NCBI GenBank assembly: GCA_947650365.1
Contig: OX393549.1
Coordinates: forward strand, 30,347,209-30,411,208
DNA length: 64,000 bases
Direction: 5' to 3'
Origin: Chamaelirium japonicum
Lineage: Eukaryota > Streptophyta > Magnoliopsida > Liliales > Melanthiaceae
Shown here one piece after another: positions 1 through 64,000 of this stretch (positions within the stretch are counted from its first letter, which is position 1; each line of letters starts with the position of its first letter). The notes beneath the pieces are model-generated. The model was not told the origin of the DNA. It searched no databases and saw nothing but the letters and a program-made list of their open reading frames with translations. Position numbers and translations under genes: made by a program.

Positions 1-308
1 TCTAATTCATTCGTACGATCCATTCTAATTTAGGATCGTACGAATGAATTAGAATGGATACATTCGTGCGAATGAATTAGAATTGATCGTACGAATGAAT
101 TAGAATGGATCGTGCGAATGAATTAGAATGGATCATACGAATGAATTTGAATGGATCGTACAAATGAACTAGAATGGATACATTCATGCGAATGAATTAG
201 AATGGATCGAACGAATGAATTAGAATGGATCGTACGAATAAATTAGAATGGATCTTACGAATGAATTAGAATGGATCGTACGAATGAATTAGAATGGATA
301 CATTTGTA
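1..308. repeat. Reverse stub 1-34, then forward block 35-308
   Basis: The window opens inside a reverse block that ends at a class E junction (TTTAGGATCG). The forward block carries 28-bp monomers near 58, 177 and 297 and closes at the switch ATTTGTACGATCC. The opening matches 19010-19250 and 34180-34430 in variant order. Confidence 0.85.
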
Positions 309-955
309 CGATCCATTCTAATTCCTTCGTACGATCCATTCTAATTCCTTCGTACGATCCATTCTAATTCATTCGTACGATCCATTCTAATTCATTCGTG
401 CAATCCATTATATTTCATTCATACGATCCATTCTTACTCATTCGTACGATCCATTCTAATTCATTCACACGAATGTATCCATTCGTACGGATGAATTAGA
501 ATAGATTGTACGAATGAATTAGAATGGATCGTACGAATGAATTAGAATGGATCGTACGAAGGAATTAGAATAGATCGTACGAATGAATTAGAATGGATCA
601 TACGAATGAATTAGAATAGATCGTACGAATGAATTAGAATGGATCGTACGAATGAATTAGAATGGATCGTACGAAGGAATTAGAATGGATCGTACGAATG
701 AGTTAGATTGGATATATTCGTGCAAATGAATTAGAATTGATCGTATGAATGTATTAGAATGGATCGTATGAGTGAATTAGAATAGATCGTACGAATGAAT
801 TAGAATGGATTGTATGAATGAATTAGAATGGATCGTACGAATGAATTAGAATGGATCATACGAATTAATTAGAATGGATCATACGAATAAATTAGAATAA
901 ATCGTACGAATGAATTAGAATGGATCGTACGAATGAATTAGAATGGATACATTCG
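309..955. repeat. Reverse block 309-485, forward block 486-955
   Basis: The two blocks meet at a class A junction near 480. Rightwards they run through AAGGAATTAG monomers and the GATATATTCGTGCAAATG 28-mer (about 712). The same chain follows the junctions at 12111, 14743 and 33095. The forward block ends at the private switch CGTGCCATCC. Confidence 0.85.
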
Positions 956-1808
956 TGCCATCCATTCTAATTCATTCGCACAATCCATTCTATTTCATTC
1001 GTACGATCCATTCTTACTCATTGGTATGATCCATTCTAATTCATTCGCACGAATGTATCCATTCTAATTCATTAGTACGAATCCATTCTAATTCATTCAT
1101 ACGATCTATTCTAATTCATTCATACAATCCATTCTAATTCTTTCACACGATCTATTCTAATTCATTCGTACGATCCATTCTAATTCATTCACACAATCCA
1201 TTCTATTTCATTCGTACGATCCATTCTTACTCATTGGTACGATCCATTCTAATTCATTCGCACGAATGTATCCATTCTAATTCATTCGTATGAATCCATT
1301 CTAATTCATTCGTACAATCTATTCTATTTCATTCGTACGATCCATTCTTACTCATTCGTATGATCCATTCTAATTCATTCGGACGAATGTATCCATTCTA
1401 ATTTATTCGTACGATCCATTCTAATTCATTCGCACGATCCATTCTAATTCATTCGTACAATCAATTCTAATTCATTCGCACGAATGTATCCATTCTAATT
1501 CATTCGTACGATCCATTCTAATTCATTCATAGGATCCATTCTAATTCATTCATACAATCCATTCTAATTCATTCGCACGAATGTATCCATTCTAATTCAT
1601 TCGTACGATCAGTTCTAATTCATTCACAAAATCTATTCTAATTCATTCATACGATCCATTCTAATTCATTCACACGAATGTATCCATTCTAATTCATTCA
1701 TACGATCCATTCTAATTCATTCGTACGATCCATTCTAATTCACTCATACGATCCATTCTAATACATTCATAAATTAGAATGGATCGTATGAATGAATTAG
1801 AATGGATC
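956..1808. repeat. Reverse block 956-1768 with forward mini-block 1769-1808
   Basis: The reverse block holds two tandem copies of a string marked by CATTGGTA (about 1019 and 1232, period 213 bp, including one 24-bp monomer). The mini-block of about 40 bp is less than two monomers in the other direction and ends in a class F junction (GGATCGTGCACGAATG). Confidence 0.85.
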
Positions 1809-3159
1809 GTGCACGAATGTATCCATTCTAATTCATTCGTACGATCCATTCTAATTCATTAATATGATCCATTCTAATTCATTCGTACGATCCATTCTAA
1901 TTCATATGCACAAAGGTATCCATTATAATCCATTCGTAGGATCCATTCTAATCCATTCGTACGATCCATTCTAATTCATTCGCTCGAATGTATGGATTCT
2001 AATCCATTCGTACGATCCATTCTAATCCATTCGTACGATCCATTCTAATTCATTCGCATGAATGTAACCATTCTAATTCATTCATTTGATCCATTCTAAT
2101 TCATTCGTACGATCCATTCTAATTCATTAATATGATCCATTCTAATTCATTCGTACGATCCATTCTAATTCATTCGTACGAACCATTTAAATTCATTCGC
2201 ACGATCCATTCTAATCCATTCGTACGATCCATTCTAATTCATGAATATGATCCATTCTAATTCATTCGTACGATCCATTGTAATTCATATGCACAAAGGT
2301 ATCCATTCTAATCCATTCGTAGGATCCATTCTAATCCATTCGTACAATCTATTCTATTTCATTCGAACGATCCATTCTTACTCATTCGTATGATCCATTC
2401 TAATTCATTCGGACGAATGTATCCATTCTAATTTATTCGTACGATCCATTCTAATTCATCCGTACGATCCATTCTAATTCATTCGCTCGAATGTATCCAT
2501 TCTAATCCATTCGCATGAATGTAACCATTCTAATTCATTCATTTGATCCATTCTAATTCATTCGTACGATCCATTCTAATTCATTAGCACGATCCATGCT
2601 AATTCATTCGTTCGATCAATTCTAATTCATTAGCACGATTTATTCTAATTCATTCGTACGATCCATTCTAATTCATTCGCACGATCCATTCTAATTCATT
2701 CATAGGATCCATTCTAATTCATTCATACGATCTATTCTAATTCTTTCACACGAATGTATCCATTCTAATTCATTCGCACGAATGTATCCATTCTAATTCA
2801 TTCGTACGATCCATTCTAATTCATTCGCACGATCCATTCTAATTCATTCGTACGATCAATTCTAATTCATTCGCACGAATGTATCCATTCTAATTCATTC
2901 GTACGATCCATTCTAATTCACTCATACGATCCATTCTAATACATTCATACGATCCATTCTAATTCATTTGCACGAATATATCCATTCTAATTCATTCGTA
3001 CGATCCATTCTAATTCCTTCGTACGATCCATTCTAATTCATTCGTACGATCTATTCTAATTCATTCGTACGATCCATTCTAATTCATTCGTACGATCCAT
3101 TCTAATTCATTCGTACGATCCATTCTAATTCATTCGTACAATCTATTCTAATTCATTCG
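1809..3159 (-). repeat. Reverse-orientation satellite block
   Basis: Marker strings in order include CATATGCACAAAGG (about 1904 and 2288) and CGCATGAATGTAACC followed by CATTTGATCC (about 2056 and 2512). These are the reverse complement of forward strings at 13385, 24532 and 34536. Its start matches 10908-11280. It ends with CCTTCG monomers and a class A reverse-form junction at 3153-3166. Confidence 0.9.
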
Positions 3160-3166
3160 TTCGAAT
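3153..3166. repeat. Class A junction, reverse form
   Basis: CATTCGTTCGAATG here; the other reverse-form copies at 30947, 44567, 52642 and 61089 keep the perfect 14-bp palindrome CATTCGTACGAATG. On the left lies CGTACAATCTATTC (AATCTATTC), on the right GGATACATTCGTGTG. Confidence 0.88.
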
Positions 3167-4246
3167 GGATACATTCGTGTGAATGAATTAGAATGGATCG
3201 TACGAATGAGTAAGAATGGATCGTACGAATGAAATAGAATGGATTGCACGAATGAATTAGAATGGATCGTACGAATGAATTAGAATGGATCGTGTGAAAG
3301 AATTAGAATGGATTGTATGAATGAATTAGAATGGATCGTACGAATGAATTAGAATGGATCGTACGAATGAATTAGAATGGATCGTACGAATGAATTAGAA
3401 TAGATTGTACGAATGAATTAGAATGGATCGTACGAAAGAATTAGAATGGATCATTCGAATGAATTAGAATGGATATATTCGTGCAAATGAATTAGAATGG
3501 ATCGTATGAATGTATTAGAATGGATCGTATGAGTGAATTAGAATGGATCGTACGAATGAATTAGAATGGATCGTATGAATGAATTAGAATGGATACATTC
3601 GTGTGAATGAATTAGAATGGATCGTATGAATGAATTAGAATAGATTTTGTGAATGAATTAGAACTGATCGTACGAATGAATTAGAATGGATACATTCGTG
3701 CGAATGAATTAGAATGGATTGTATGAATGAATTAGAATGGATCGTACGAATGAACTAGAATGGATACATTCGTGCGAATGAATTAGAATGGATCGTACGA
3801 ATGAAATAGAATGGATCGTACGAATGAATTAGAATGGATCTTACGAATGAATTAGAATGGATCGTACGAATGAATTAGAATGGATCGTACGAATGAATTA
3901 GAATGGATACATTCGTGCGTATGAATTAGAATGGATCGGACGAATGAATTAGAATGGATCGTACGAATGAATTAGAATGGATCATACGAATGAATTAGAA
4001 TGGATCGTACGAATAAATTAGAATAGATACATTCGTCCGAATGAATTAGAATGGATCATACGAATGAGTAAGAATGGATCGTACGAATGAAATAGAATAG
4101 ATTGTACGAATGAATTAGAATGGATCGTACGAATGAATTAGAATGGATCGTGTGATAGAATTAGAATGGATTGTATGAATGAATTAGAATGGATCGTATG
4201 AATGAATTAGAATGGATCGTGCGAATGAATTCGAATGGATCGTACG
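3160..4246 (+). repeat. Forward-orientation satellite block
   Basis: It begins with the 28-mer GATACATTCGTGTGAATG and the GAGTAAG, GAAATAG, GATTGCACG string that also follows 30960, 44580, 52655 and 61100. It ends at a class B reverse-form junction (4221-4255). Confidence 0.9.
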
Positions 4247-5211
4247 AATTCATTCTAATTCATTCATACAATCCATTCTAATTCTTTCACACGATCTATT
4301 CTAATTCATTCGTAGGATCCATTCTAATTCATTCGTACAATCTATTCTATTTCATTCGTACGATCCATTCTTACTCATTCGTATGATCCATTCTAATTCT
4401 TTCGGACGAATGTATCCATTCTAATTTATTCGTACGATCCATTCTAATTCATTCGTACGATCCATTCTAATCCATTCATACGATCCATTCTTACTCATTC
4501 GTATGATCCATTCTAATTCATTCGTACGATCCATTCTAATTCATTCGTACGATCCATTCTAATTCATTCGTACGATCCATTCTAATTCATTCGTACAATC
4601 CATTCTATTTCATTTGTACGATCCATTCTTACTCATTCGTATGATTCCTTCTAATTCATTCGTACGATCCATTCTAATTCATTTGTACGATCCATTCTAA
4701 TTCATTCGTACAATCCATTCTATTTCATTCGTACGATCCATTCTTACTCATTTGTATGATCCATTCTAATTCATTCGCACGAATGTATCCATTCTAATTC
4801 ATTCATACAATCCATTCTAATTCATTCCGTACGATCCATTCTAATTCATTCGTACGATCGTACGAATGAATTAGAATGGATCGTACGAATGAATTAGAAT
4901 AGATTGTGCGACTGAATTAGAATGGATCGTACGAATGAATTAGAATGGATCGTACGAATGAATTAGAATGGATCGTACGAATGAATTAGAATGGATACAT
5001 TCGTCCGAATGAATTAGAATGGATCATACGAATGAGTAAGAATGGATCATACGAATGAAAAAGAATAGATTGTACGAATGAATTAGAATGGATCCTACGA
5101 ATGAATTAGAATGGATCGTGTGAAAGAATTAGAATAGATTGTATGAATGAATTAGAATGGATCGTATGAATGAATTAGAATGGATCGTGCGAATGAATTC
5201 GAATGGATCGT
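4247..5211. repeat. Reverse block 4247-4857, forward block 4858-5211
   Basis: The blocks meet at a class C junction (CGATCG, 4855-4860). The reverse arm contains the rare 24-bp monomer ATTCCGTACG (about 4825), so this copy is the reverse complement of the junction at 21273. The forward part ends at a class B reverse-form junction (5188-5225) with TACGTATTC instead of TACGAATTC. Confidence 0.88.
4822..4893. repeat. Class C palindrome with unlike arms
   Basis: The centre CGATCG is at 4855-4860. The left arm carries the 24-bp ATTCCGTACG monomer; the right arm carries a plain 23-mer followed by AGATTGTGCG. This is the reverse complement of the arrangement at 21273. Confidence 0.88.
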
Positions 5212-7077
5212 ACGTATTCATTCTAATTCATTCATACAATCCATTCTAATTCTTTCACACGATCTATTCTAATTCATTCGTACGTTCCATTCTAATTCAT
5301 TAGCACGATCCATGCTAATTCATTCGTTCGATCAATTCTAATTCATTAGCACGATCCATTCTAATTCATTAGCACGATCCATTCTAATTCATTCGCACGA
5401 TCCATTCTAATTCATTCACAAAATTTATTCTAATTCATTCATACGATCCATTCTAATTCATTCACACGAATGTATCCATTCTAATTCATTCATACGATCC
5501 ATTCTAATTCATTCGTACGATCCATTCTAATTCACTCATACGATCCATTCTAATACATTCATACGATCCATTCTAATTTATTTGCACGAATATATCCATT
5601 CTAATTCAGTCGTACGATCCATTCTAATTCCTTCGTACGATCCATTCTAATTCATTCGTACGATCTATTCTATTTCATTCGTACGATCCATTCTTACTCA
5701 TTCGTCCGATCCACTCTAATTCATTCGTCCGATCCATTCTAATTCATTCGCACGAATGTATCCATTCTAATTCATTCGTTTGATCAATTCTAATTCATTA
5801 GCACGATCCATTCTAATTCATTCGTACGATCCATTCTAATTCATTCGCACGATCCATTCTAATTCATTCATAGTATCCATTCTAATTCATTCGTACGATC
5901 CATTCTAATTCATTCGCATAATCCATTCTATTTATTCGTACGATCCATTCTCACTCATTGGTACGATCCATTCTAATTCATTCGCACGAATGTATCCATT
6001 CTAATTCATTCGTACGAATCCATTCTAATTCATTCGTACAATCTATTCTATTTCATTCGTACGATCCATTCTTACTCATTCGTATGATCCATTCTAATTC
6101 ATTCGGACGAATGTATCCATTCTAATTTATTCGTACGATCAATTCTAATTCATTCGTACGATCCATTCTAATTCATTCGTACGATCCATTCTAATTCATT
6201 CGTCCGATCCATTCTAATTCATTCGCACGAATGTATCCATTCTAATTCATCCGTACGATCCATTCTAAATCATTCGTACGATCCATTCTAATTCATTCGT
6301 AAGATCCATTCTAATTCATTCGTACAATCCATTCTAATTCATTCGTACGATCCATTCTAATTCATTCGCACGAATCTATCCATTCTAATTCATTCGTACA
6401 ATCCATTCTATTTCATTCGTACGATCCATTCTTACTCATTCATATGATCCATTCTAATTCATTCGTATGATCCATTCTAATTCATTCGTACGAACCATTC
6501 TAATTCATTCGTACGATCCATTCTAATTCATTCGCACGATCCATTCTAATTCATTCATACGATCCATTCTAATTCATTCATACGATCCATTCTAATTCAT
6601 TCCTACAATCCATTCTAATTCATTCGCCCGATCCATTCTAATTCATTCATACGATCCATTCTATTCGAATGGATCATGCGATCCATTCGAATTCATTCGC
6701 ACGATCCATTCTAATTCATTCATACGATCCATTCTAATTCATTCATAGAATGCATTCTAATTCTTTCACACGATCCATTCTAATTCATTCGTACGATCCA
6801 TTCTAATTCATTCATACAATCCATTCTATTTCATTTGTACGATCCATTCTTAGTCATTCGTATGATCCATTCTAATTCATTCGTACGATCCATTCTAATT
6901 CATTTGTACGATCCATTCTAATTCATTCGTACAATCCATTCTATTTCATTCGTACGATCCATTCTTACTCATTCGTATGATCCATTCTAATTCATTCGCC
7001 CGAATGTATCCATTCTAATTCATTCGCACAATCTATTCTAATTCATTCGTACGATCCATTCAAATTCATTCGTACGA
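5212..7077 (-). repeat. Reverse-orientation satellite block with hairpin
   Basis: The start (about 5296-5350) has the ATTAGCACG, CATGCTAATTC, GTTCGATCAATTC string, the reverse complement of the GTGCTAATG, GATCGAACG, TAGCATGG string in forward blocks. From about 6215 its monomer order mirrors the next block. A class G hairpin sits at 6664-6691. It ends at the class C palindrome centred at 7077/7078. Confidence 0.9.
6664..6691. repeat. Class G 28-bp hairpin, loop ATGC
   Basis: Arms TTCGAATGGATC and GATCCATTCGAA around ATGC. It is the exact reverse complement of the hairpins at 7648, 21661 and 51571. Confidence 0.93.
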
Positions 7078-7147: not shown

Positions 7148-8812
7148 CGTACGAATGAATTAGAATAGATCGTATGAATGAATTAGAATGGATCATACGA
7201 ATGAGTAAGAATGGATCGTACGAATGAATTAGAATGGATCGTACAAATGAATTAGAATGGATCGTACGAATAAATTAGAATGGATACATTCGTCCGAATG
7301 AATTAGAATGGATCATACGAATGAGTAAGAATGAATCGTATGAATGAAATAGAATAGATTGTACGAATGAATTAGAATGGATCCTACGAATGAATTAGAA
7401 TGGATTGTGTGAAAGAATTAGAATGGATCGTACAAATGAATTAGAATTGATCGTACGAATGAATTAGAATGGATCATACGAATGAGTAAGAATAGATCGT
7501 ACAAATGAAATAGAATGGATTGTACGAATGAATTAGAATGGATCGTATGAATGAATTAGAATGGATCGTGTGAAAGAATTAGAATGCATTGTATGAATGA
7601 ATTAGAATGGATCGTATGAATGAATTAGAATGGATCGTGCGAATGAATTCGAATGGATCGCATGATCCATTCGAATAGAATGGATCGTATGAATGAATTA
7701 GAATGGATCGGGCGAATGAATTAGAATGGATTGTAGGAATGAATTAAAATGGATCGTATTAATGAATTAGAATGGATCGTATGAATGAATTAGAATGGAT
7801 CGTGCGAATGAATTAGAATGGATCGTACGAATGAATTAAAAAGGATCGTACGAATGAATTAGAATGGATCATACGAATGAATTAGAATGGATCATACGAA
7901 TGAGTAAGAATGGATCGTACGAATGAAATAGAATGGATTGTACGAATGAATTAGAATGGATACATTCGTGCGAATGAATTAGAATGGATCGTACGAATGA
8001 ATTAGAATGGATCGTACGAATGAATTAAAATGGATCGTACGAATGAATTAGAATGGATCGTACGAATGGATTAGAATGGATACATTCGTGCAAATGAATT
8101 AGAATGGATTGTATGAATGAATTAGAATAGATTGTACGAATGAATTAGAATGGATCGTACGAATGAATTAGAATGGATCGTACGAAGGAATTAGAATGGA
8201 TCGTACGAATGAATTAGAATGGATCGTACGAATGAATTAGAATAGATCGCACGAATGAATTAGAATGGATCGTAGAAGGAATTAGAATGGATCGTACGAA
8301 TGAATTAGACTGGATCGTACGAATGAATTTGAATGGATACATTTGTGCGAATGAATCTAAATGGATTGTATGAATGAATTACAATGGATCGTACAAATGA
8401 GTTAGAATGGATCGTACGAATGAATTAGTATAGCTCATACGAATGAATTAGAATGAATTGTATGAATGAATTAGAATGGTTACATTCGTGCGAATGAATT
8501 AGAATAGATCGTACGAATGAATTAGAATGGATCGTACGAATAAATTAGAATGGATCGTGGGAATGAATTAGAATGGATCGTACGAATGAATTAGAATGGA
8601 TCCACCGAATGAGTTAGAATGGATCATACGAATGAATTAGAATGGATTGTATGAATGAATTAGAATGGATTGTGCGAATGAATTAGAATGGATCGTATGA
8701 ATGAACAAGAATGGATCGTACGAATGAATTAGAATGGATCGTGCGAATGAATTAGCATGAATCGTACGAATGTATTAGAATGGATCGTACGAATGAATTA
8801 GAATGAATCGTA
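7078..8812 (+). repeat. Forward-orientation satellite block with hairpin
   Basis: It contains the class G hairpin at 7648-7675, then a run marked by CGGGCG, GAATCTAAATGG and ATAGCTCATACG. The same run recurs at 21274-22501 and its first part at 51183-51900. It ends at GAATCGTACGATCC, also seen in variant form at about 22498. Confidence 0.9.
7648..7675. repeat. Class G 28-bp hairpin, loop GCAT
   Basis: Perfect 12-bp arms around GCAT. Upstream is GTGCGAATGAA, downstream TAGAATGG and then a CGGGCG monomer. Confidence 0.93.
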
Positions 8813-9545: not shown

Positions 9546-10907
9546 GATATATTCGAGCGAATGAATTAGAATAGATCGTAGGAATGAATTAAAATGGATC
9601 ATACGAATGAATTAGAATGTATCGTACGAACGAATTAGAATGGATCGTACGAACGAATTAGAATGGATCATAATAACGAATTAGAATGGATCGTACGAAT
9701 GAATTAGAATGGATACATTCGAGCGAATGAATTAGAATGGATTGTGCGAATGAATAAGAACAGATCGTGCGAATGAATTAGAATGGATCGTACGAATGAA
9801 TTAGAATGGATCGTGCGAATGAATTAGAATGGATCGTACGAATGAATTAGAATGGATACATTTGTGCGAATGAATCAGAATGAATCGTACGAATGAATTA
9901 GAATGAATCATATGAATGAACTAGAATGGATCGTACGAATGAATTAGAATGGATCGTGCGAATGAATTAGAATGGATCGTACGAATGAATTAGAATGGAT
10001 CATACGAAGGAATTAGAATGGATCGTACGAATGAATTAGAATGGATATATTCGTGCAAATGAATTAGAATGGATCGTATGAATGTATTAGAATGGATCGT
10101 ATGAGTGAATTAGAATGGATCGTTACGAATGAATTAGAATGGATCGTATGAATGAATTAGAATGGATACATTCGTGTGAATGAATTAGAATGGATCGTAT
10201 GAATGAATTAGAATTGATTTTGTGAATGAACTAGAACTAATCGTACGAATGAATTAGAATGGATCGTACGAATGAATTAGAATGGATACATTTGTGCGAA
10301 TGAATTAGAATGGATCGTACGAATGAATTATAATGGATTATACGAATGAATTAGAATGGATACATTCGTGCGAATGAATTAGAATGGATCGGACGAATGA
10401 ATTAGAATGGATCGTACGAATGAATTAGAATGGATCGTACGAATGAATTAGAATGGATCATGCGAATGAATTAGAATGGATCGTGTGAAAGAATTAGAAT
10501 GGATTGTATGAATGAATTAGAATGGATCGTACGAATGAATTAGAATGGATCTTATGAATGAATTAGAATGGATCGTACGAATGAATTAGAATGGATCGTA
10601 CGAATGAATTAGAATGGATACATTCGTGCAAATGAATTAGAATGGATCGAACGAATGAATTAGAATGGATCGTACAAATGAATTAGAATGGATCGTACGA
10701 ATGAATTAGAATGGATCGTGCGAATGAATTAGAATGGATCGTGTGAAAGAATTAGAATGGATTGTATGAATTAATTAGAATGGATCGTACGAATGTATTA
10801 GAATGGATCTTACGAATGATTTAGAATGGATCGTACGAATGAATTAGAATGGATCGTATGAATGAATTAGAATGGATACATTCGTGGGAATGAATTAGAA
10901 TGGATCG
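9521..10907 (+). repeat. Forward-orientation satellite block
   Basis: After an unusual start (GGATGGATATATTCGAGCG), several CGAACGAATTAG monomers occur near 9620-9670 and an AATAAGAACAGATCG monomer near 9753. Two successive GTGTGAAAG, GATTGTATG, GATCTTA strings occur near 10490 and 10741. It ends at a class F reverse-form junction (10905-10915). Confidence 0.88.
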
Positions 10908-12115
10908 TGCACGAATGTATCCATTATAATTCATTCGTACGATCCATTCTAATTCATTAATATGATCCATTCTAATTCATTCGTACGATCCATTCTAATT
11001 TATATGCACAAAGGTATCCATTCTAATCCATTCGTAGGATCCATTCTAATCCATTCGTACGATCCATTCTAATTCATTCGTACGATCCATTCTAATTCAT
11101 TCGCTCGAATGTATCCATTCTAATCCATTCATACGATCCATTCTGATCCATTCGTACGATCCATTCTAATTCATTCGCATGAATGTAACCATTCTAATTC
11201 ATTCATTTGATCCATTCTAATTCATTCGTACGATCCATTCTAATTCATTCGTCCGAACCATTCTAATTCATTCGCACGAATGTATCCATTCTAATTCATT
11301 CATACGATCCATTCTAATTTATTCGTACGATCCATTCTAATTCATTCGCACAAATGTATCCATTCTAATTCATTCGTACGATCCATTCTAATTCATTTGC
11401 ACGATCCATTCTAATTCATTCGTACGGTCCATTCTAATTCTTTCACACGATCCATACTAATTCATTCATACGATCCATTCTAATACATTCATACGATCCA
11501 TTCTAATTCATTTGCACGAATATATCCATTCTAATTCATTCGTACGATCCATTCTAATTCCTTCGTACGATCCATTCTAATTCATTCGTACGATCTATTC
11601 TAATTCATTCGTACGATCCATTCTATATCATTCGCACGATCTATTCTAATTCCTTCGTACGATCCATTCTAATTTATTCGTACGATCCATTCTAATTCAT
11701 TCATACAATCCATTCTAATTCTTTCACACGATCTAATCTAATTCATTCGTAGGATCCATTCTAATTCATTCGTACAATCTATTCTATTTCATTCGTACGA
11801 TCCATTCTGACTCATTCGTATGATCCATTCTAATTCATTTGCACGAATATATCCATTCTAATTCATTCGTACGATCCATTCTAATTCCTTCGTACGATCC
11901 ATTCAAATTCATTCGTACGATCTATTCTAATTCATTCGCACGATCCATTCTAATTCATTCGTACGATCCATTCTAATTCTTTCACACGATCCATTCTAAT
12001 TCATTCGTACGATCCATTCTAATTCATTCGTGCAATCCATTCTATTTCATTCGTACGATCCATTCTTACTCATTCGTACGATCCATTTAATTCATTCACA
12101 CGAATGTATCCATTC
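10908..12115 (-). repeat. Reverse-orientation satellite block
   Basis: It starts like 1809-2180: AATATGATCC, then CATATGCACAAAGG-type (about 11003), CGCTCGAATG, CGCATGAATGTAACC and CATTTGATCC. The right part carries CACGAATATATCC with CCTTCG monomers. It ends at a class A junction at 12111. Confidence 0.9.
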
Positions 12116-14518
12116 GTACGAATGAATTAGAATAGATTGTACGAATGAATTAGAATGGATCGTACGAATAAATTAGAATGGTTCGTACGAAGGAATTAGA
12201 ATGGATTGTACGAATGAATTAGAATGGATCGTACAAATGAATTAGAATAGATCGTACGAATGAATTAGAATGGATCGTACGAAGGAATTAGAATGGATCG
12301 TACGAATGAATTAGAATGGATATATTCATGCAAATGAATTAGAATGGATCGTATGAATGTATTAGAATGGATCGTTTGAGTGAATTAGAATGGATCGTAC
12401 GAATGAATTAGAATGGATTATATGAATGAATTAGAATGGATCGTACGAATGAATTAGAATGGATCATATGAATTAATTAGAATGGATCATACGAATGAAT
12501 TAGAATGGATCGTACGAATGAATTAGAATGGATCGTACGAATGAATTAGAATGGATAAATTCGTGCGAATGAATTAGAATGGATTGTGCGAATGAATAAG
12601 AACAGATCGTGCGAATGAATTAGAATGGATCGTACGAATGAATTAGAATGGATCGTGCGAATGAATTAGAATGGATCGTACGAATGAATTAGAATGGATA
12701 CATTTGTGCGAATGAATTAGAATGGATCATACGAATGAATTAGAATGGATCGTATGAATGAATTAGAATGGATCGTACGAATGAATTAGAATGGATCGTG
12801 CGAATGAATTAGAATGGATCGTACGAATGAATTAGAATGTATCGTGTGAAAGAATTAGAATGGATCATACGAATGAATTAGAATGGATCGTGCGAATGAA
12901 TTAGAATGTATCGCACGAATGAATTAGAATGGATACATTTGTGCGAATGAATTAGAATGGATCGAACGAAAGAATTAGAATGGATCGTATGAATGAATTA
13001 GAATGGATCGTACGAATGAATTAGAATGGATCGTGCGAATGAATTAGAATGGATCGTACGAATGAATTAGAATGGATCGTACGAATGAACTAGAATGGAT
13101 ACATTCGTGCGAATGAATTACAATGGATCGTACGAATGAATTAGAATGGATCGTACGAATGAATTAAAATGTATCTTACGAATGAATTAGAATGGATCGT
13201 ACGAATGAATTAGAATGGATCCTACGAATGAATTAGAATGGATCTTACGAATGAATTAGAATGGATCGTATGAATAAATTAGAATGGATCGTATGAATGG
13301 TTTAGAATGGATACATTCGTGCGAATGAATTAGAATGGATCGGACGAATGAATTAGAATGGATCGTACGAATGAATTAGAATGGATCAAATGAATGAATT
13401 AGAATGGTTACATTCATGCGAATGAATTAGAATGGATCGTACAAATGGATTAGAATGGATCGTACGAATGGACTAGAATGGATACATTCGTGCGAATGAA
13501 TTAGAATGGATCATACGAATGAGTAAGAATGGATCGTACGAATGAAATAGAATGGATTGTACGAATGAATTAGAATGGATTGTGCGAATGAATTTGAATG
13601 GATCGTACGAATGAATTAGAATGGATCGTGCTAATGAATTAGAATTGATCGTACGAATGAAATAGAATGGATTGTACGAATGATTTAGACTGGATCGTAT
13701 GAATGAATTAGAATGGATCGTACGAATGATTTAGAATGGATACATTCGTGCGAATGAATTAGAATGGATCATACGAGTGAGTAAGAATGGATCGTACGAA
13801 TGAAATAGAATGGATTGTACGAATGAATTAGAATGGATTCATACGAATGAATTAGAATGGATACATTCGTGCGAATGAATTAGAATGGATCGTACCAATG
13901 AGTAAGAATGGATCGTATGAATGAAATAGAATGGATACATTCGTGCGAATGAATTAGAATGGATCGTACCAATGAGTAAGAATGGATCGTATGAATGAAA
14001 TAGAATGGATTGTACAAATGAATTAGAATGGATAGTGCGAATGAATTAGAATGGATAGTGCGAATGAATTAGAATGGATAGTGCGAATGAATTAGAATGG
14101 ATCGTACGAATTAATTAGAATGGATCATACGAATGAATTAGAATGGATCGTACAAATGAATTAGAATGGATCGTACGAATGAATTAGAATAGATCGTGCG
14201 AATGAATTAGAATGGATCGTACGAATGAATTAGAATGGATACATTTGTGCGAATGAATTAGAATGGATCGTACGAATGAATTAGAATGGATCGTACGAAT
14301 GGATTAGAATGGATACATGAATGTATTAGAATGGATCGTATGAGTGAATTAGAATGGATCATACGAATTAATTAGAATGGATCATACGAATGATTTAGAA
14401 TGGATGGTACGAATGAATTAGAATGGATCGTACGAATGAATTAGAATGGATTGTGCGAATGAATAAGAACAGATCGTGTGAATGAATTAGAATGGATCGT
14501 ACGAATGAATTAGAATAG
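12116..14518 (+). repeat. Forward-orientation satellite block
   Basis: It opens with the post-class-A chain (AGATTGTACG, AAGGAATTAG, GATATATTC) and holds the CAAATG, GGTTACATTCATGCG marker pair near 13388-13415. A 74-bp tandem pair (13860-14007) and three identical GATAGTGCG monomers in a row (about 14030-14098) mark recent local duplication. It ends at AGATCCATTC. Confidence 0.9.
13860..14007 (+). repeat. 74-bp tandem duplication
   Basis: Two copies of 28+23+23 bp, with CCAATGAGTAAG and GTATGAATGAAATAG, that appear identical. Three identical GATAGTGCG monomers follow shortly after. Confidence 0.92.
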
Positions 14519-47894: not shown

Positions 47895-48908
47895 CATCAT
47901 TCTAATTCATTTGTTTGATCCATTCTAATTCATTTGTATCCATTCTATTTCATTCGCACGATCCATTCTAATTCATACGCGCAATCTATTCTAATTCATT
48001 CGTACGATCCATTCTAATTCATTCGTACGATCCATTCTAATTCATTCGCACGAATGTATCCATTCTAGTTCATTAGTACGATCCATTCTAATTCATTCAT
48101 ACAATCCATTCTAATTAATTCGCACGAATGTATCCATTCTAATTCATTCGTACGATCCATTCTAATTCATTCACAAAATCTATTCTAATTCATTCATACG
48201 ATCCATTCTAATTCATTCGCACGAATGTATCCATTCTAATTCATTCATACTATCCATTCTACTTCATTCGTACTATCCGTTCTAATTCACTCATACAATC
48301 CATTCTAATTCATTCATACGATCCATTCTAGTTCATTTGCACGAATATATCCATTCTAATTCATTCGTACGATCCATTCTAATTCCTTCGTACGATTCAT
48401 TCTAATTCCTTCGTACGATCCATTCTAATTCCTTCGTACGATCCATTCTATTTCATTCGTATGATCCATTCTAATTCCTTCGTACGATCCATTCTAATTC
48501 CTTCGTATCCATTCTAATTCATTTATACAATCCATTCTAATTTATTCGCACGAATGTATCCATTCTAATTCATTTGCACGATCAATTCTAATTCATTCCT
48601 ATGATCTATTCTAATTCATTCGTACGATCCATTCTAATTCATTCTAATTCATTCGTACGATCCATTCTAATTCATTCGTATATTCCATTCTAATTCATTA
48701 GCACGATCCATGCTAATGAATTAGAATGGATCGTACGATCCAATCTAATTCATTCATACGATCCATTCTTACTCATTCGTATGATCCATTCTAATTCAAT
48801 CGTACGATCCATTCTAATTCATTCGTACGATCCATTCTAATTCCTTCGTACGATCCATTCTAATTCATTCGTGCAATCCATTCTATTTCATTCGTACGAT
48901 CAATTTTA
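47895..48908 (-). repeat. Reverse block with class H palindrome
   Basis: TTTGTATCC, CGCGCAATC, CACAAAATC, GTACTATCCG, CCTTCG runs and GTATATTCC, the same cast as 28641-29200 and 31400-32480. The class H palindrome lies at 48716-48753. It ends at ATTCATTAGAATGG, the reverse complement of class I. Confidence 0.9.
48716..48753. repeat. Class H 38-bp palindrome, third copy
   Basis: Same sequence and context as the copies at 28993 and 31737; all three are in the same orientation. Confidence 0.9.
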
Positions 48909-50779
48909 ATTCATTAGAATGGATCGTACGAATGAATTAGAATGGATCATATTAATGAATTAGAATGGATCGTACGAATGAATTAGAATGGATCGTACGA
49001 ATGAATTAGAATGGATCTTACGAATGAATTAGAATGGATTAGAATGGATTAGAATGGATCGTACGAATGAAATAGAATAGATTGTACGAATGAATTAGAA
49101 TGGATTCGTACGAATGAATTAGAATGGATACATTCGTGCGAATGAATTAGAATGGATCGTACCAATGAGTAAGAATGGATCGTACGAATGAAATAGAATG
49201 GATTAGAATGGATTAGAATGGATCGTACGAATGAAATAGAATAGATTGTACGAATGAATTAGAATGGATTCGTACGAATGAATTAGAATGGATTAGAATG
49301 GATTAGAATAGATCGTACGAATGAATTAGAATGGATTAGAATGGATTAGAATGGATCGTACGAATGAAATAGAATGGATTAGAATGGATTAGAATGGATC
49401 GTACGAATGAAATAGAATAGATTGTACGAATGAATTAGAATGGATTCGTACGAATGAATTAGAATGGATACATTCGTGCGAATGAATTAGAATGGATCGT
49501 ACCAATGAGTAAGAATGGATCGTACGAATGAAATAGAATGGATTGTGCGAATGAATTAGAATGGATCGTACGAATGAATTAGAATGGATCGTGAGAAAGA
49601 ATTAGAATGGATTGTATGAATGAATTAGAATAGATCGTATGAATGAATTAGAATGGATCGTACGAATGAATTAGAATGGATCGTGCGAATGAATTAGAAT
49701 GGATCGTACGAATGAATTAGAATGGATACATTCGTGCGAATGAATTAGAATGGATCGGACGAATAAATTAGAATGGATCGTACGAATGAATTAGAATGGA
49801 TCAAATGAATGAATTAGAATGGATCGTACGAATGAATGTGAATGCATCGTACGAAAGAATTAGAATGGATATATTCGTGCTAATGAATTAGAATTGATCG
49901 AACGAATGAATTAGCATGGATTGTATGAATGAATTAGAATGGATCGTACGAATGAATTAGAATGGATAGTACGAATGAGTAAGAATGGATCGTACGAATG
50001 AAATAGAATAGATCGTACGAATGAATTAGAATGGATCATACGAAGGAATTAGAATGGATCGTACGAATGAATTAGAATGGATATATTCGTGCAAATGAAT
50101 TAGAATGGATCGTATGAATGTATTAGAATGGATCGTATGAGTGAATTAGAATGGATCGTACGAATGAATTAGAATCGATCGTATGAATGAATTTGAATGG
50201 ATACATTCGTGTGAATGAATTAGAATGGATTGTATGAATGAATTAGAATAGATTTTGTGAATGAATTAGAACTGATCGTACGAATGAATTAGAATGGATA
50301 CATTCGTGCGAATGAATTAGAATGGATTGTATGAATGAATTAGAATGGATCCTATGAATGAATTAGAATGGATCGTACGAATGAATTAGAATGTATACAT
50401 TCGTGCGAATGAATTAGAATTGAACGTACGAATGAATTAGAATGGATCGTGCGAATGAATTAGAATGGATCGTACGAATGAATTAGAATGGATACATTCG
50501 TGCGAATGAATTAGAATGGATACATTCGTGCGAAAGAATTAGAATAGATCATATGAATGAATTAGAATGGATCCTATGAATGATTTAGAATGGATCGTGC
50601 GAATGAATTAGAATGGATCGTACGAATGAATTAGAATGGATCGTGCTAATGAATTAGAATTGATCGAACGAATGAATTAGCATGGATCGTGCTAATGAAT
50701 TAGAATGGAACGTACGAATGAATTAGAATGGATCGTGTGAAAGAATTAGAATGGATTGTATGAATGAATTAGAATGAAT
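48909..50779 (+). repeat. Forward block with 10-bp subrepeats
   Basis: It contains the GGATTAGAAT 10-bp repeats (49036-49400), GATCAAATG (about 49800), the GATATATTC chain (about 50074), double 28-mers (about 50484-50540) and the GTGCTAATG, GATCGAACG, TAGCATGG string. It ends at a class B junction (about 50772-50800). Confidence 0.9.
49036..49400 (+). repeat. 10-bp GGATTAGAAT subrepeats in a nested duplication
   Basis: Two or more GGATTAGAAT units in a row start at 49036, 49200, 49290, 49333 and 49376. Each equals a 23-mer that has lost 13 bp including CGTACG. The 164 bp beginning at 49036 and at 49376 look identical, and the copy at 49200 shares the first 92 bp. Nothing like it occurs elsewhere in the window. 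Confidence 0.93.
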
Positions 50780-50899
50780 TCGTACGATCCATTCGAATTC
50801 ATTCGCACGATCCATTCTAATTCATTCATACGATCCATTCTAATTCATTCATACAATCCATTCTAATTCTTTCACACGATCCATTCTAATTCATTCGTA
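50713..50899. repeat. Class B junction and its palindrome
   Basis: Arms of about 64 bp (50713-50776 and 50836-50899) carry GTGTGAAAG and GATTGTATG in mirror order. The 59-bp spacer holds GAATTCGTACGATCC and CATTCGAATTC. Forward-form copies are near 17821, 20841, 24911, 36825 and 61495; reverse-form copies are near 4221, 5188, 25391, 35689, 53107, 59668 and 63265. Confidence 0.88.
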
Positions 50900-52400: not shown

Positions 52401-53134
52401 CGCACAAATGTATCCATTCCAATTCATTCGTACGATCCAGTCTAATTCATTCGTACGATCCATTCTAATTCCTTCGTACGATCCATTCTAATTCATTCAT
52501 ACGATCTATTCTAATTCATTCGTACGATCCATTCTAATTCATTCATACGATCCATTCTAATTCCTTCGTATGATCTATTCTAATTCATTCGTGTGATCTA
52601 TTCTAATTCATTCTAATTCATTCGTACGATCTATTCTAATTCATTCGTACGAATGGATACATTCATGTGAATGAATTAGAATGGATCGTACGAATGAGTA
52701 AGAATTGATCGTACGAATGAAATAGAATGGATTGCACGAATGAATTAGAATGGATCGTACGAATGAATTAGAATGGATCGTGTGAAAGAATTAGAATGGA
52801 TTGTATGAATGAATTAGAATGGATCGTACGAATGAATTAGAATGGATCGTACGAAGGAATTAGAATGGATCGTACGAATGAATTAGAATGGATCGTACGA
52901 AGGAATTAGAATGGATCATACGAATGAAATAGAATGGATCGTACGAATAAATTAGAATGGATACATTCGTCCGAATGAATTAGAATGGATCATACGAATG
53001 AGTAAGAATGGATCGTACGAATGAAATAGCATAGATCGTATGAGTGAATTAGAATGGATTGTATGAATGAATTAGAATGGATCGTATGAATGAATTAGAA
53101 TGGATCGTGCGAATGAATTCGAATGGACCGTACG
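51942..53134. repeat. Reverse block 51942-52648, forward block 52649-53134
   Basis: The reverse part is the third copy of the CATTCGGTGGATCC module (51942-52400), then CCTTCG monomers. The blocks meet at a class A reverse-form junction (52642-52655). The forward part ends at a class B reverse-form junction (about 53107-53140, GGACCGTACGAATTC). Confidence 0.9.
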
Positions 53135-53796
53135 AATTCATTCTAATTCATTCATACAATCCATTCTAATTCTTTCACACGATCTATTCTAATTCATTCG
53201 TAGGATCCATTCTAATTCATTCGTATAATCCATTCTATTTCATTTGTACGATCCATTCTTACTCATTCGTATGATCCATTCTAATTCATTCGTACGATCC
53301 ATTCTAATTCATTTGTACGATCCATTCTAATTTATTCGCACGAATGTATCTATTCTAATTCATTCGTACGATCCATTCTAATTCATTTGCACAATCTATT
53401 CTAATTCATTCATACGATCCATTCTAATTCATTCGCACAAATGTATCCATTCTAATTCATTCATACGATCCATTCTACTTCATTCGTACTATCCGTTCTA
53501 ATTCACTCATACGATTCATTCTAATTCATTCATACGATCCATTCTAATTCATTCTAATTCATTCATACAATCTATTCTATTTCATTCGTACGATCCATTC
53601 TTACTCATTCGTATGACCCATTCTAATTCATTCGGACGAATGTATCCATTCTAATTTATTCGTACGATCCATTCTAATTCATTCGTACGATCCATTCTTA
53701 CTCATTCGTACGATCCATTCTAATTCCTTCGTACGATCCATTCTAATTCATTCGCACGATCCATTCTAATTCTTTCATATAATCCATTCTAATTCT
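53135..53796 (-). repeat. Reverse-orientation satellite block
   Basis: CATACAATCC, CTTTCACACG and CGTAGGATCC first, then GTACTATCCG (about 53487). A truncated AATTCATTCTAATTC unit lies near 53550. It ends at CTTTCGTGCGAATG, where a reverse monomer passes straight into a forward 23-mer. Confidence 0.88.
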
Positions 53797-59260: not shown

Positions 59261-59692
59261 TGGATCGTACGAATGAATTAGAATGGATCTTACGAATGAA
59301 TTAGAATGGATCGTACGAATGAATTAGAATGGATCGTACGAATGAATTAGAATGGATACATTCGTGCGAATGAATTAGAATGGATCGGACGAATGAATTA
59401 GAATGGATCGTACGAATGAATTAGAATGGATTGTACGAATGAATTAGAATGGATTGTACGAATAAATTAGAATGGATACATTCGTCCGAATGAATTAGAA
59501 TGGATCATACGAATGAGTAAGAATGGATCGTACAAATGAAATAGAATAGATTGTACGAATGAATTAGAATGGATCCTACGAATGAATTAGAATGGATCAT
59601 GTGAAAGAATTAGAATGGATTGTATGAATGAATTAGAATAGATCGTATGAATGAATTAGAATAGATCGTGCGAATGAATTCGAATGGATCGT
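56612..59692 (+). repeat. Forward block, mostly a copy of 38141-40860
   Basis: The copy runs to about 59260, then continues with GATCTTACG, GATCGGACG, CATTCGTCCGAATG and GATCCTACG monomers. It ends at a class B reverse-form junction (about 59668-59705). Confidence 0.92.
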
Positions 59693-60120
59693 ACGAATTC
59701 ATTCTAATTCATTCATACAATCCATTCTAATTCTTTCACACGATCCATTCTAATTCATTCGTACGTTCTATTCTAATTCATTAGCACGATCCATGCTAAT
59801 TCATTCGTTCGATCAATTCTAATTCATTAGCACGATCCATTCTAATTCATTCGTACGATCCATTCTAATTCTTTCGCACGATCCATTCTAATTCATTCAT
59901 AGGATCCATTCTAATTCATTCATTCGATCTATTCTAATTCTTTCGCACGAATGTATCCATTCTAATTCATTCGCACGTATGTATCGATTCTAATTCATTC
60001 GTACGATCCATTCTAATTCATTCGTACGATCCATTCTAATTCATTCGTACGATCCATTCTAATTCATTCATACGATCTATTCTAATTCATTCATACAATC
60101 CATTCTAATTCTTTCACACG

Positions 60121-60345
60121 ATCCATTCAAATTCATTCGTACGATCTATTCTAATTCATTCGCACAATCCATTCTATTTCATTCGTACGATCCATTCTTA
60201 CTCATTCGTATGATCCATTCTAATTCATTCGCACGAATGTATCCATAATGGATCATACGAATGAGTAAGAATGGATCGTACGAATGAAATAGAATGGATT
60301 GTGCGAATGAATTAGAATGGACCGTACGAATGAATTAGAATAGAT
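60121..60345. repeat. Class D palindrome in inverted orientation
   Basis: Arms 60121-60218 and 60248-60345. The 29-bp spacer (60219-60247) is the exact reverse complement of the spacer at 17191-17219. Left of the arm lies CTTTCACACG, the reverse complement of the CGTGTGAAAG to the right of the 17317 copy. So this is an inversion of a longer piece rather than of the spacer alone. Confidence 0.92.
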
Positions 60346-60642: not shown

Positions 60643-61502
60643 GGTCGCACGAATGTATCCATTCTAATTCATTCGTACGATCCATTCTAATTCATTCGTA
60701 TGATCCATTCTAATTCATTCGTATGATCCATTCTGATTAATTCGTATGATCCATTCTAATTAATTCGTACGATCCATTCTAATTCATTCATACAATCCAT
60801 TCTAATTCATTCGTACGATCCATTCTAATTCACTCATACGATCCATTCTAATACATTCGTACGATCCATTCTAATTCATTTGCACGAATATATCCATTCT
60901 AATTCATTCGTACGATCCATACTAATTCCTTCGTACGATCCATTCTAATTCATTCGTACGATCTATTCTAATTCATTCGTACGATCCTTTCTAATTCATT
61001 CGTACGATCCATTCTAATTCCTTCGTACGATCCATTCTAATTTATTCGTACGATCCATTCTAATTCATTCGTACAATCTATTCTAATTCATTCGTACGAA
61101 TGGATACATTCGTGTGAATGAATTAGAATGGATCGTACGAATGAGTAAGAATGGATCGTACGAATGAAATAGAATGGATTGCACGAATGAATTAGAATGG
61201 ATCGTACGAATGAATTAGAATGGATCGTACGAAGGAATTAGAATGGATCGTACGAATGAGGTAGAATGGATCGTACGAATGAATTAGAATAGATCGTACG
61301 AATGAATTAGAATGGACCATACGAAGGAATTAGAATGGATCGTACGAATTAATTAGAATGGATCGTGCTATTGAATTAGAATTGATCGAACGAATGAATT
61401 AGCATGGATCGTGCTAATGAATTAGAATGGAACGTACGAGTGAATTAGAATGGATCGTGTGAAAGAATTAGAATGGATTGTATGAATGAATTAGAATGAA
61501 TT
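60643..61502. repeat. Reverse block 60643-61095, forward block 61096-61502
   Basis: The reverse part has CACGAATATATCC and CCTTCG monomers leading to a class A reverse-form junction (61089-61102). The forward part has the post-class-A chain, then GTGCTATTG, GATCGAACG, TAGCATGG and a class B junction (about 61495-61520). Confidence 0.9.
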
Positions 61503-62564
61503 CGTACGATCCATTCGAATTCATTCGCATGATCCATTCTAATTCATTCATACGATCCATTCTAATTCATTCATACAATCCATTCTAATTCTTTCACACG
61601 ATCCATTCTAATTCATTCGTAGGATCCATTCTAATTCATTCGTACAATCTATTCTATTTCATTCGTACGATCCATTCTTACTCATTCGTATGATCCATTC
61701 AAATTCATTCGGACGAATGTATCCATTCTAATTTATTCGTACGATCCATTCTAATTCATTCGTATGATCCATTCTAATTCATTCGTATGATCTATTCTAA
61801 TTCATTCGTACGATCCATTCTAATTTCATTCGTACGATCCATTCTAATTCATTCGCTCGAATGTATCTATTCTAATCCATTCGTATGATCCATTCTAATC
61901 CATTCGTACGATCCATTCTAATTCATTCGCATGAATGTAACCATTCTAATTCATTCATTTGATCCATTCTAATTCATTCGTACGATCCATTCTAATTCAT
62001 TCGTCCGATCCATTCTAATTCATTCGCACGAATGTATCCATTCTAATTCATTCGTACGATCCATTCTAATTCATTCGTACGATCCATTCTAATTCATTCG
62101 TAAGATCCATTCTAATTCATTCGTATGATCCATTCTAATTCATTCGTACGATCCATTCTAATTCATTCGCACGAATGTATCCATTCTAGTTCATTCGTAC
62201 GATCCATTCTAATTCGCATGAATGTAACCATTCTAATTCATTCATTTGATCCATTCTAATTCATTCGTCCGATCCATTCTAATTCATTCGCACGAATATA
62301 TCCATTCTAATTCATTCGTACTATCCATTCTAATTCATTCGTAAGATCCATTCAAATTCATTCGTACGATCCATTCTAATTCATTTGTACGATCCATTCT
62401 AATTCATTCGCATGAATGTATCCATTCTAGTTCATTCGTACGATCCATTCTAATTCATTCGTATGATCAATTCTAATTTATTCGCACGATCCATTCTAAT
62501 TCATTCGTACGATCAATTCTAATTCATTCGCACGAATGTATCCATTCTAATTCATTCGTACGAT
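61503..62564 (-). repeat. Reverse-orientation satellite block
   Basis: Post-class-B chain, a 24-bp CTAATTTCATTCG monomer (about 61810), then CGCTCGAATG and CATGAATGTAACC with CATTTGATCC, present twice (about 61929 and 62216). It ends at a class E reverse-form junction (GATCCTGAATTAG, 62562-62574). Confidence 0.9.
61929..62490 (-). repeat. 287-bp tandem duplication
   Basis: CGCATGAATGTAACC starts at about 61929 and again at 62216. The second copy has one monomer fewer after CATTTGATCC, and CGCATGAATG, CTAGTTC near its end (about 62410). A related single-copy version follows at 63420-63940. Confidence 0.82.
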
Positions 62565-64000
62565 CCTGAATTAGAATGGATCGTACGAATGAATTAAAAT
62601 GGATACCTTTGTGCATATGAATTAGAATGGATCGTACGAATGAATTAGAATGGATCATATTAATGAATTAGAATGGATCGTACGAATGAATTAGAATGGA
62701 TCGTACGAATGAATTAGAATGGATCTTACGAATGGATACATTCGTGCGAATGAATTAGAATGGATCGGACGAATGAATTAGAATGGATCGTACGAATGAA
62801 TTAGAATGGATCGTACGAATGAATTAGAATGGATCAAATGAATGAATTAGGATGGTTACATTCATGCGAATGAATTAGAATGGATCCTACGAATGGATTA
62901 GAATGGATCGTACGAATGGATTAGAATGGATACATTCGAGCGAATGAATTAGAATGGATCGTACGAATGAAATTAGAATGGATCGTACGAATGAATTAGA
63001 ATAGATCGTATGAATGAATTAGAATGGATCGTACGAATGAATTAGAATGGATCGTACGAATAAATTAGAATGGATACATTCGTCCGAATGAATTAGAATG
63101 GATCATACGAATGAGTAAGAATGGATCGTACGAATGAAATACAATAGATTGTACAAATGAATTAGAATGGATCCTACGAATGAATTAGAATGGATCGTGA
63201 GAAAGAATTAGAATGGATTGTATGAATGAATTAGAGTGGATCGTATGAATGAATTAGAATGGATCGTGCGAATGAATTCGAATGGATCGTACGAATTCAT
63301 TCTAATTCATTCCTACAATCCATTCTAATTCTTTCACACGATCCATTCTAATTCATTCGTACGTTCCATTCTAATTCATTAGCACGATCCATGCTAATTC
63401 ATTCGTACGATCTATTCTAATTTATTCGTACGATCCATTCTAATTTCATTCGTACGATCCATTCTAATTCATTCGCTCGAATGTATCCATTCTAATCCAT
63501 TCGTACGATCCATTCTAATCCATTTGTACTATCCATTCTAATTCATTCGCATGAATGTAACCATTCTAATTCATTCATTTGATCCATTCTAATTCATTCG
63601 TACGATCCATTCTAATTCATTCGTCCGATCCATTCTAATTCATTCGCACGAAGGTATCCATTCTAATTCATTCGTACGATCCATTCTAATTCATTCGTAC
63701 GATCCATTCTAATTCATTCGTAAGATCCATTCTAATTCATTCGTACGATCCATTCTAATTCATTCGTACGATCCATTGTAATTCATTCGCACGAATGTAT
63801 CCATTCTAGTTCATTCGTACGATCCATTCTAATTCATTCGTACGATCCATTCTAATTCATTCGCACGATCCATTCTAATTCATTCGTACGATCAATTCTA
63901 ATTCATTCGCACGAATATATCCATTCTAATTCATTCGTACGATCCTGAATTAGAATGGATCGTACGAATGAATTAGAATGGATACCTTTGTGCATATGAA
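62565..64000. repeat. Forward 62565-63290, reverse 63291-63943, forward stub to window end
   Basis: The forward part has GATACCTTTGTGCATATG (about 62603), GATCAAATG (about 62832), GGTTACATTCATG and CATTCGAGCG. A class B reverse-form junction follows (about 63265-63300). The reverse part repeats 61801-62564, and a class E reverse-form junction at 63941-63953 lets the next GATACCTTTGTGCATATG copy begin before the window ends. Confidence 0.9.

Follow-up and report, generated by a model that had tools for sequence, protein, structure and literature searches.

Inversion junctions recur in both directions in a mixed-orientation satellite array of the plant Chamaelirium japonicum

How satellites spread is debated, since near-identical units hold little history. 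The closest described counterparts of the array treated here are the macro-dyad satellites of Tribolium madens, T. freemani and T. castaneum, in which arrays change monomer orientation at few, conserved inversion sites (INV_1a, 2044 sequences at 98.9%; INV_1b, 3486 at 98.2%; INV_2, 6428 sites at 98.2%); according to the parts of that account drawn on here, its authors confirmed the sites on raw HiFi reads and regarded such symmetries as documented in Tribolium only (PMC13081366). In the portions used of the human and primate accounts, pericentromeric HSat2 occurs in both orientations, for some chromosomes inside a single subfamily (PMC10138405), some primate centromeres carry polymorphic inversion blocks (PMC10138405, PMC11062924, PMC9859433), and a review reports that few inversions have been seen and that alpha-satellite orientation is typically maintained (PMC9859433). 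Ordinary plant satellites with circular DNA forms have been described in a report whose abstract is silent on orientation (PMC2543021). Here we describe a satellite array of the plant Chamaelirium japonicum (assembly GCA_947650365.1), analysed over a window of 64,000 bp (contig OX393549.1, here C1:30347209-30411208), in which runs of 23- and 28-bp units alternate in orientation.

The junctions between opposed runs fall into recurrent kinds that are found in both directions and on other chromosomes, similar blocks more than 1 kb apart are direct and inverted in equal measure, and large collinear copies are present. From the sequence we consider it probable (about 0.7) that the family is a dispersed plant satellite whose mixed orientation is stable, with rare junctions that would be spread by homology-based turnover in either orientation. 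A literature search of titles and the beginnings of abstracts, with subscription papers mostly outside its scope, recognised no plant satellite with shared inversion junctions; in a Tenebrio paper (PMC13192020), orientation terms gave two matches to 'inverted', both in one reference. None of five unit stretches of 17-21 letters was found in the collection of papers searched, and a search of a plasmid collection gave no match.

Array composition and orientation runs

The source assembly (1.52 Gb, 3253 contigs) comprises 12 scaffolds of ~70-137 Mb and a thirteenth of 3.9 Mb; C1, C7, C40 and similar names denote its scaffolds and contigs, and the switches are known from the assembled sequence alone. 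Under a 23/28-mer profile model these units cover all 64000 bases at 94% identity, leaving only satellite, of one family, in the window:

1..64000, no strand assigned: mixed-orientation satellite in 78 runs (mean 820 bp, 54% plus), with 2333 23-bp and 378 28-bp units

The 28-mer is the 23-mer with an extra 5 bp, giving the CATTCGYRCGAATG palindrome, and the 23-bp unit is found together with 46-, 69- and 97-bp multiples among the 32 rows of a tandem-repeat analysis. The array is thus long, tandem and made of one short unit, and its family occupies many loci and chromosomes (among the matches listed, C1-C3, C5-C12 and unplaced scaffolds, with none on C4); the single head-to-tail orientation that is usual, if not strict, for satellite DNA is replaced by 77 switches.

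A k-mer model gave 83 switches and the profile model 77 (1.2 per kb), the six dropped by the latter being three 26-bp flips. This 26-bp flipped piece, seen with the k-mer model only, has three copies in the same direction (28986-29011, 31730-31755 and 48709-48734). The runs range from 32 to 3959 bp, both end runs being cut by the window, and 53.5% of window bases are plus. Inner run lengths do not depart from an exponential distribution (Kolmogorov-Smirnov (KS) p 0.17). The probability that two sites have equal orientation is 0.89, 0.61, 0.56, 0.47 and 0.56 at distances of 100 bp, 500 bp, 1 kb, 2 kb and 5 kb, respectively; orientation memory is close to chance by 1-2 kb. The same profile model gave 0 to 2.7 switches per kb in 23 other pieces, some of them overlapping, with none in two 1.5-kb pieces.

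Mixed orientation could itself be selected if opposed arrays form hairpins or double-stranded RNA that keep the DNA silent: opposed transcripts could pair, and the parts drawn on of the Tribolium account propose a structural role at pericentromeres (PMC13081366). Run lengths and orientation look random here, however, the arms are not specially matched and neutral turnover would suffice, so that selection is distinctly unlikely as the cause.

Junction classes and their direction

The first-pass annotation of the window had listed 47 sites in seven recurrent classes of junction, said to occur as themselves and as their reverse complements, and had proposed clustering 150-bp switch-centred windows as a check. 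Such clustering does yield recurrent classes with members in both directions. An ungapped version on the 83 k-mer switches (clustering 1, 150-bp windows) placed 58 of them in 13 recurrent classes, nine of which are two-directional. A gapped alignment of the profile switches at a cut-off of 122 (clustering 2) covered the window together with 14 other loci, with 169 junctions in all, and gave 43 clusters, of which 17 are recurrent and hold 143 junctions; locus L027, which duplicates the start of L064 and would double-count two junctions, was left out. Within the window, 51 of 75 testable junctions fall into 11 of these classes, and 10 of the 11 are present in both directions.

A border between plus and minus runs reads much the same on the opposite strand (median self-inverse identity 0.81), and direction therefore needed testing. 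All 736 links of clustering 2 agree in direction without conflict, cut-offs of 112, 118 and 126 are likewise conflict-free, and it is this consistency, not mere likeness, that shows junction direction to be real. A loose gapped cut-off of 105 was rejected, having merged 71 junctions with 17 direction conflicts, and cut-offs of 112-126 were used instead. Breakpoints are spread over many phases of the unit. The members in the window are given below; computed switches lie up to 33 bases from the positions listed before.

463..503, plus: junction A (minus to plus); profile switch, clustering
12094..12134, plus: junction A; clustering and pair scoring
14727..14767, plus: junction A; clustering
19605..19645, plus: junction A, left run of 44 bp only, weaker match; score 104
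33078..33118, plus: junction A; clustering
3140..3180, minus: junction A reversed; clustering
30935..30975, minus: junction A reversed; clustering
44558..44598, minus: junction A reversed; clustering
52631..52671, minus: junction A reversed, weaker match; score 106
61078..61118, minus: junction A reversed; clustering
16734..16774, plus: junction B (plus to minus), absent from the earlier list; clustering
17809..17849, plus: junction B, weaker match, single in clustering 2; two other clusterings
20827..20867, plus: junction B; clustering
24899..24939, plus: junction B; clustering
36812..36852, plus: junction B; clustering
50760..50800, plus: junction B; clustering
61482..61522, plus: junction B; clustering
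4231..4271, minus: junction B reversed; clustering
5195..5235, minus: junction B reversed; clustering
25370..25410, minus: junction B reversed; clustering
35695..35735, minus: junction B reversed; clustering
53119..53159, minus: junction B reversed; clustering
59680..59720, minus: junction B reversed; clustering
63278..63318, minus: junction B reversed; clustering
17172..17212, plus: junction D; clustering 2
23300..23340, plus: junction D; clustering 2
27132..27172, plus: junction D; clustering 2
60227..60267, minus: junction D reversed; clustering 2
13..53, plus: junction E, cut by window edge; score 101
19010..19050, plus: junction E; clustering
24146..24186, plus: junction E; clustering
34177..34217, plus: junction E; clustering
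62547..62587, minus: junction E reversed; clustering
63926..63966, minus: junction E reversed, near window edge; score 124
18844..18884, plus: junction F; clustering 2
34011..34051, plus: junction F; clustering 2
10889..10929, minus: junction F reversed; clustering 2
28061..28101, plus: junction I; clustering 2
45250..45290, plus: junction I; clustering 2
46510..46550, plus: junction I; clustering 2
48893..48933, minus: junction I reversed; clustering 2
7648..7675, 21661-21688 and 51571-51598, plus: class G quasi-palindromic micro-flip within a run; pair scoring
6664..6691 and 9106-9133, minus: class G reversed; pair scoring

Forty of the 47 sites lie at confirmed switches, five of them more weakly, while two F sites have mainly the core in common and the five G sites are not run switches. 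All ten A sites and all 13 B sites are at switches and belong together, as do the four of D and the four of I; with the further member found at 16754, class B has 14 copies within 64 kb. Two A sites are weaker members, 19622 with a score of 104 and 52642 with one of 106, where the other seven in the comparison have 131-143; both are single in clustering 2, although 52651 does join A in another clustering; B 17821, too, is single in clustering 2 and joins B in two others. Site 25210 is tied to A in two other clusterings, but its core differs and it is single in clustering 2. The six E sites are all at switches and belong together, those at 34 and 63944 being too near the window edges for clustering. 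Full flanks are common to three of the five F sites, whereas 42902 (117) and 1808 (100) have mainly the core in common. Class G recurs at five sites and is the cleanest directional mark (matches of 141-150 direct and 125-134 inverted, against 15-20 the wrong way round), yet it is a micro-flip inside runs and no switch of run orientation. A whole-genome search with class G gave no match and, as it did not recover class G itself either, carries no information on copies elsewhere.

Among 1369 same-type pairs of window junctions compared over 150 bp, 154 (11.2%), 143 (10.4%) and 115 (8.4%) are alike at 85, 90 and 95% identity, whereas in the same comparison of pseudo-junctions, each made by joining random halves, 17, 3 and 0 of 2775 pairs attain those values. 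When each half is allowed the phase that suits it best, a laxer control, the shares are 18.5, 5.5 and 0.26%; since this exceeds the observed value at 85%, that level alone is unconvincing and the 95% level is relied upon. Junction pairs of at least 90% identity comprise 65 direct and 78 inverted ones, with median conserved spans of 322 and 318 bp.

These controls bear on the proposal that junctions formed repeatedly at one set of palindromic places in the unit (TCGTACGA among them) and resemble each other by convergence. Some junctions do have palindromic cores, and the few bases shared at the breakpoint are slightly more than chance would give (class mean 1.21 against 0.77, P = 0.03). Flank variants, however, match far past the core, as the excess at 95% identity over both controls attests, breakpoints lie at many unit phases, and in most classes the flanks of equal cores are more alike than random; convergence is accordingly very unlikely.

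Copies in the genome and within the window

Flanking variants travel with the junctions, as the first-pass annotation had it, and copies are found in both directions and on other chromosomes. Eight 4-kb slices were taken at round coordinates near earlier matches; seven are satellite (on C3, C2, C8, C1, C7, C11 and C6) and that on C9 is not. The seven hold 35 switches, and together with the C1 slices they make 63 junctions on 7 chromosomes, still mostly placed near known matches. Of these junctions 43, 38 and 36 match the window at 85, 90 and 95%, compared with means of 12.2, 1.6 and 0 of 63 in twenty pseudo-junction sets (maximum 20 at 85%). Loci L002-L008 and L059-L062 had been chosen for matching the window start, which biases sharing, and were excluded from the count. 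Among 20 spot samples of 150 bp taken genome-wide, one was of the satellite, whose genome share is thereby poorly bounded.

Window singletons sought elsewhere recur in five of five cases; counts include the window's own copy, and each search scored 40 places.

30300..31299, plus: 1-kb piece with two junctions (30955, 31157); 40 of 40 places scored, at full or nearly full length, 97-100%, 24 plus and 16 minus
42125..42324, plus: junction 42225, without partner in the window; 40 of 40 places scored, at full length, 99-100%, 26 plus and 14 minus

The 1-kb piece matches C1, C2, C3, C7, C8 and unplaced scaffolds, with both strands on C1 and on C8. Singleton 18698 is found at 40 of 40 places scored at 97-100% (20 plus, 20 minus), and 55850 at 12 places at 95-100%. 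Both strands are represented within one scaffold for 42225 on C1, C7, C8 and C23 and for 18698 on C2 and C266.

Larger copies are collinear. Four anchor points of the window (its start, 14417, 30300 and 55750) have matches in this order at C1:27.694, 27.709, 27.724 and 27.746 Mb; a second set, for all but the start, lies at C1:27.757, 27.773 and 27.798 Mb, and three of the four anchor points appear in reversed order on C40, twice. C12 and C9 have two blocks in common, one of 4.9 kb (98.1%) and one of 2.9 kb (98.7%), with junction order kept, and C12 and C7 have 4.4 kb in common at 97.1%, with 92-93% in stretches adjoining a gap; over long collinear parts the C12, C9 and C7 blocks keep junction order at 97-99%. 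If the scaffolds are rightly assembled, copying spans hundreds of bases to tens of kb.

Some peculiarities of the assembly were noted. C40 repeats itself with a step of ~320.9 kb, by large duplication or false assembly duplication; the collinear window copies at C1:27.69-27.80 Mb, 48.6 kb apart at three anchors and 52.6 kb at the fourth, may equally be a real or a false duplication; and a run of exactly 500 N inside the C7 array (C7:42853237-42853736, L061:238-737) is likely a scaffold gap. The gap and the C40 repeat lend some colour to the view that assembly errors produced the switches. The same junctions, flanks included, recur on many separate scaffolds and chromosomes, however, and switches each 0.8 kb would fall inside single long reads, which makes errors an extremely unlikely source of the small-scale switches; large-scale placement, including the unplaced scaffolds and the C40 repeat, may be faulty.

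Arrays are situated both near scaffold ends and internally (C1 at 3.3 and 136 Mb, C8 at 0.17 and 80.6 Mb, C12 at 66.9 Mb, C9 at 73.1 Mb, C3 at 15-16 Mb and C7 at 41-54 Mb), a placement unlike that of a purely centromeric satellite. At C1:29001688-29001772 (L063:1689-1773) an 85-bp non-satellite insert has similar satellite on either side, like an insertion with target duplication, and the non-satellite slice C1:32000000-32001500 (L022) resembles part of a retroelement by eye. Elsewhere in the assembly, rbcL matches of near-equal score are found on more than 100 contigs (e.g. C340, C265, C337 and C367), several with two matches ~154.6-154.8 kb apart as in plastid concatemers, and a top-scoring plant-type mitochondrial cox1 match is on 59 contigs; these are probably unremoved organelle contigs. 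Among PDB entries the rbcL protein is closest to chain 1wdd_A, from rice, by which the source would be a plant and perhaps a monocot.

Similar blocks, defined as ungapped and of at least 200 bp and at least 94% identity, number 1011 direct and 1016 inverted in the window, a direct share of 49.9% where 50.2% is expected; the blocks are not independent, so that the equal counts are no formal test. By rising distance the direct and inverted counts are 53/14 below 1 kb and then 54/56, 81/96, 133/163, 319/298, 318/325 and 53/64. Beyond 1 kb (958 and 1002 blocks) direct and inverted blocks are equal in length and identity (KS p 0.64 and 0.75). Exact repeats of at least 80 bp in the window are 643 direct and 692 inverted, and comparison with 13 other loci gave 1950 direct blocks, where 1951 are expected, and 1958 inverted, the direct share per locus being 41-56%, apart from 67% at one locus with only 12 blocks. 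The largest ungapped inverted pair is the following:

12088..13243, plus: 1156-bp block, copied in inverted form at 29827-30982 (97.0%) and, for the first 847 bp, in direct form at 14721-15567 (97.6%)
29827..30982, minus: inverted copy of 12088-13243, 1156 bp, 97.0%

The direct excess below 1 kb means that ordinary tandem growth continues locally, which qualifies the contrast with head-to-tail growth drawn by the first-pass annotation.

Origin and spread of the junctions

The 150-bp arms at 65 junctions have a median likeness of 0.81, against 0.86 for random plus/minus pieces in the best of six phases. Of 76 adjacent junction pairs, 0 fit a clean inversion, at both ends, of the run between them, and the outer register is continuous in 9 of 76 against 9.9 expected, which gives no signature of insertion either; the outer register is, however, kept in three of five flips under 130 bp. 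The many phases, the few shared bases and arms that are not mirror copies together fit a joining of separate pieces, illegitimate or by template switch, and speak against young fold-backs. Fold-back replication, in which a broken end folds on itself and leaves mirror-image arms as in large palindromes, might be suggested by the large dyads of Tribolium satellites, in the parts drawn on of that account (PMC13081366), and by class G, a small quasi-palindrome. The arms being no more alike than random pieces, it is an unlikely origin, although ancient fold-backs would have lost the likeness of their arms. Out-of-register joins without a change of orientation were counted as 35 events, with several copies of a single event among them, compared with 77 switches. 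Random end joining would be expected to produce the two about equally often, so that joining in register and by homology is likelier for the remainder.

In the reading preferred here, illegitimate joins of plus and minus pieces would arise rarely and leave a limited set of junctions. Homology-driven turnover would then copy pieces of ~0.2 to tens of kb, junctions included, possibly by unequal exchange, by conversion-like copying or perhaps by excised circles that re-enter by recombination. Since the array offers both orientations everywhere, homology would be met either way by a broken end or circle; a direct and an inverted copy would be about equally probable, and the array would stay near 50:50, with no need of selection for orientation.

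The earlier proposal that the array spreads by copying mixed-orientation units is in part supported by the recurrent junctions in both directions and on other chromosomes. Several observations weigh against turnover in either orientation; the scarcity of junctions inside blocks and the pile-up of block ends qualify the earlier proposal as well. Twenty of the 63 slice junctions are without a window match even at 85%, and singleton 14517 is found at 3 places (99-100%), all on C1 and in one direction, occurring at high identity beyond the window only in the two collinear copies near C1:27.7 Mb. A junction lies inside only 101 of 2027 similar block pairs, and 102 interior switches are counted where a shift null, which ignores the need for the junction in both copies, gives 482. 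Block ends pile up at junctions instead, in 769 of 8100 cases against 244 expected (threefold) or, counting distinct ends, in 80 of 1700 against 52 (1.5-fold; null maximum 68). Part of this pile-up is expected, because a block spans a junction only if both copies have it, but it also allows that junctions are also borders of shuffled pieces or starting points of exchange. The direct/inverted equality, finally, would also fit frequent flipping in place. A test of register at block ends is not used as evidence, since most ends of ungapped blocks are 5-base shifts such as 23- against 28-bp units give.

It is a doubtful extension that junctions are start and stop sites of copying, with palindromic cores that break or stall forks, and that junction-to-junction exchange spreads the junction set. 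The pile-up of block ends is what this predicts, and it also follows if junctions are merely meeting points of unrelated pieces.

Recombination between inverted repeats is an established mechanism that turns existing junctions round without making new ones. In-place flips by recombination between opposed repeats, followed by duplication through unequal exchange and with no inverted copying, would accordingly give both directions, and the equal identities of direct and inverted blocks fit frequent flipping too; on these data, in-place inversion followed by duplication and inverted copying are indistinguishable. None of the 76 adjacent junction pairs fits a clean inversion, however, even if later events would blur that signal, and duplication is still required for the 14 class B copies in 64 kb, as is transfer between chromosomes. 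We therefore regard in-place flipping as a possible, somewhat unlikely account.

Comparison with known systems

A rare junction serves here as a tag with direction, by which copying, inversion and interchromosomal transfer become countable, and the equality of orientations beyond 1 kb offers a simple quantitative rule to be satisfied by models of unequal exchange, circles and break repair. Human HSat2 and alpha satellite have inverted blocks, as here, but the portions of those accounts drawn on describe no common junction set, unlike what is found here.

With the Tribolium satellites, as far as the parts of that account used here go, the present array has in common opposed subarrays and conserved, recurrent inversion sites. 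Tribolium arrays consist mostly of two opposed subarrays of several kb, built on a ~110-bp ancestral element and with three named inversion types (PMC13081366), whereas the present array has runs of 0.8 kb on average, 23/28-bp units, 17 recurrent junction classes in a small sample and a plant host, and its matches lie near scaffold ends as well as inside, unlike the placement described for Tribolium. Two opposed multi-kb subarrays tending to symmetry are not what the 64 kb contain, with their 78 runs of exponential-like length, and the intermingling of a major and a minor satellite is likewise missing from the window, which holds one satellite, other arrays having been sampled in part. Conserved satellite inversion sites are thereby extended from beetles to a plant, in an array that shares such sites as the beetles have them, yet forms no dyad of two matched arms.

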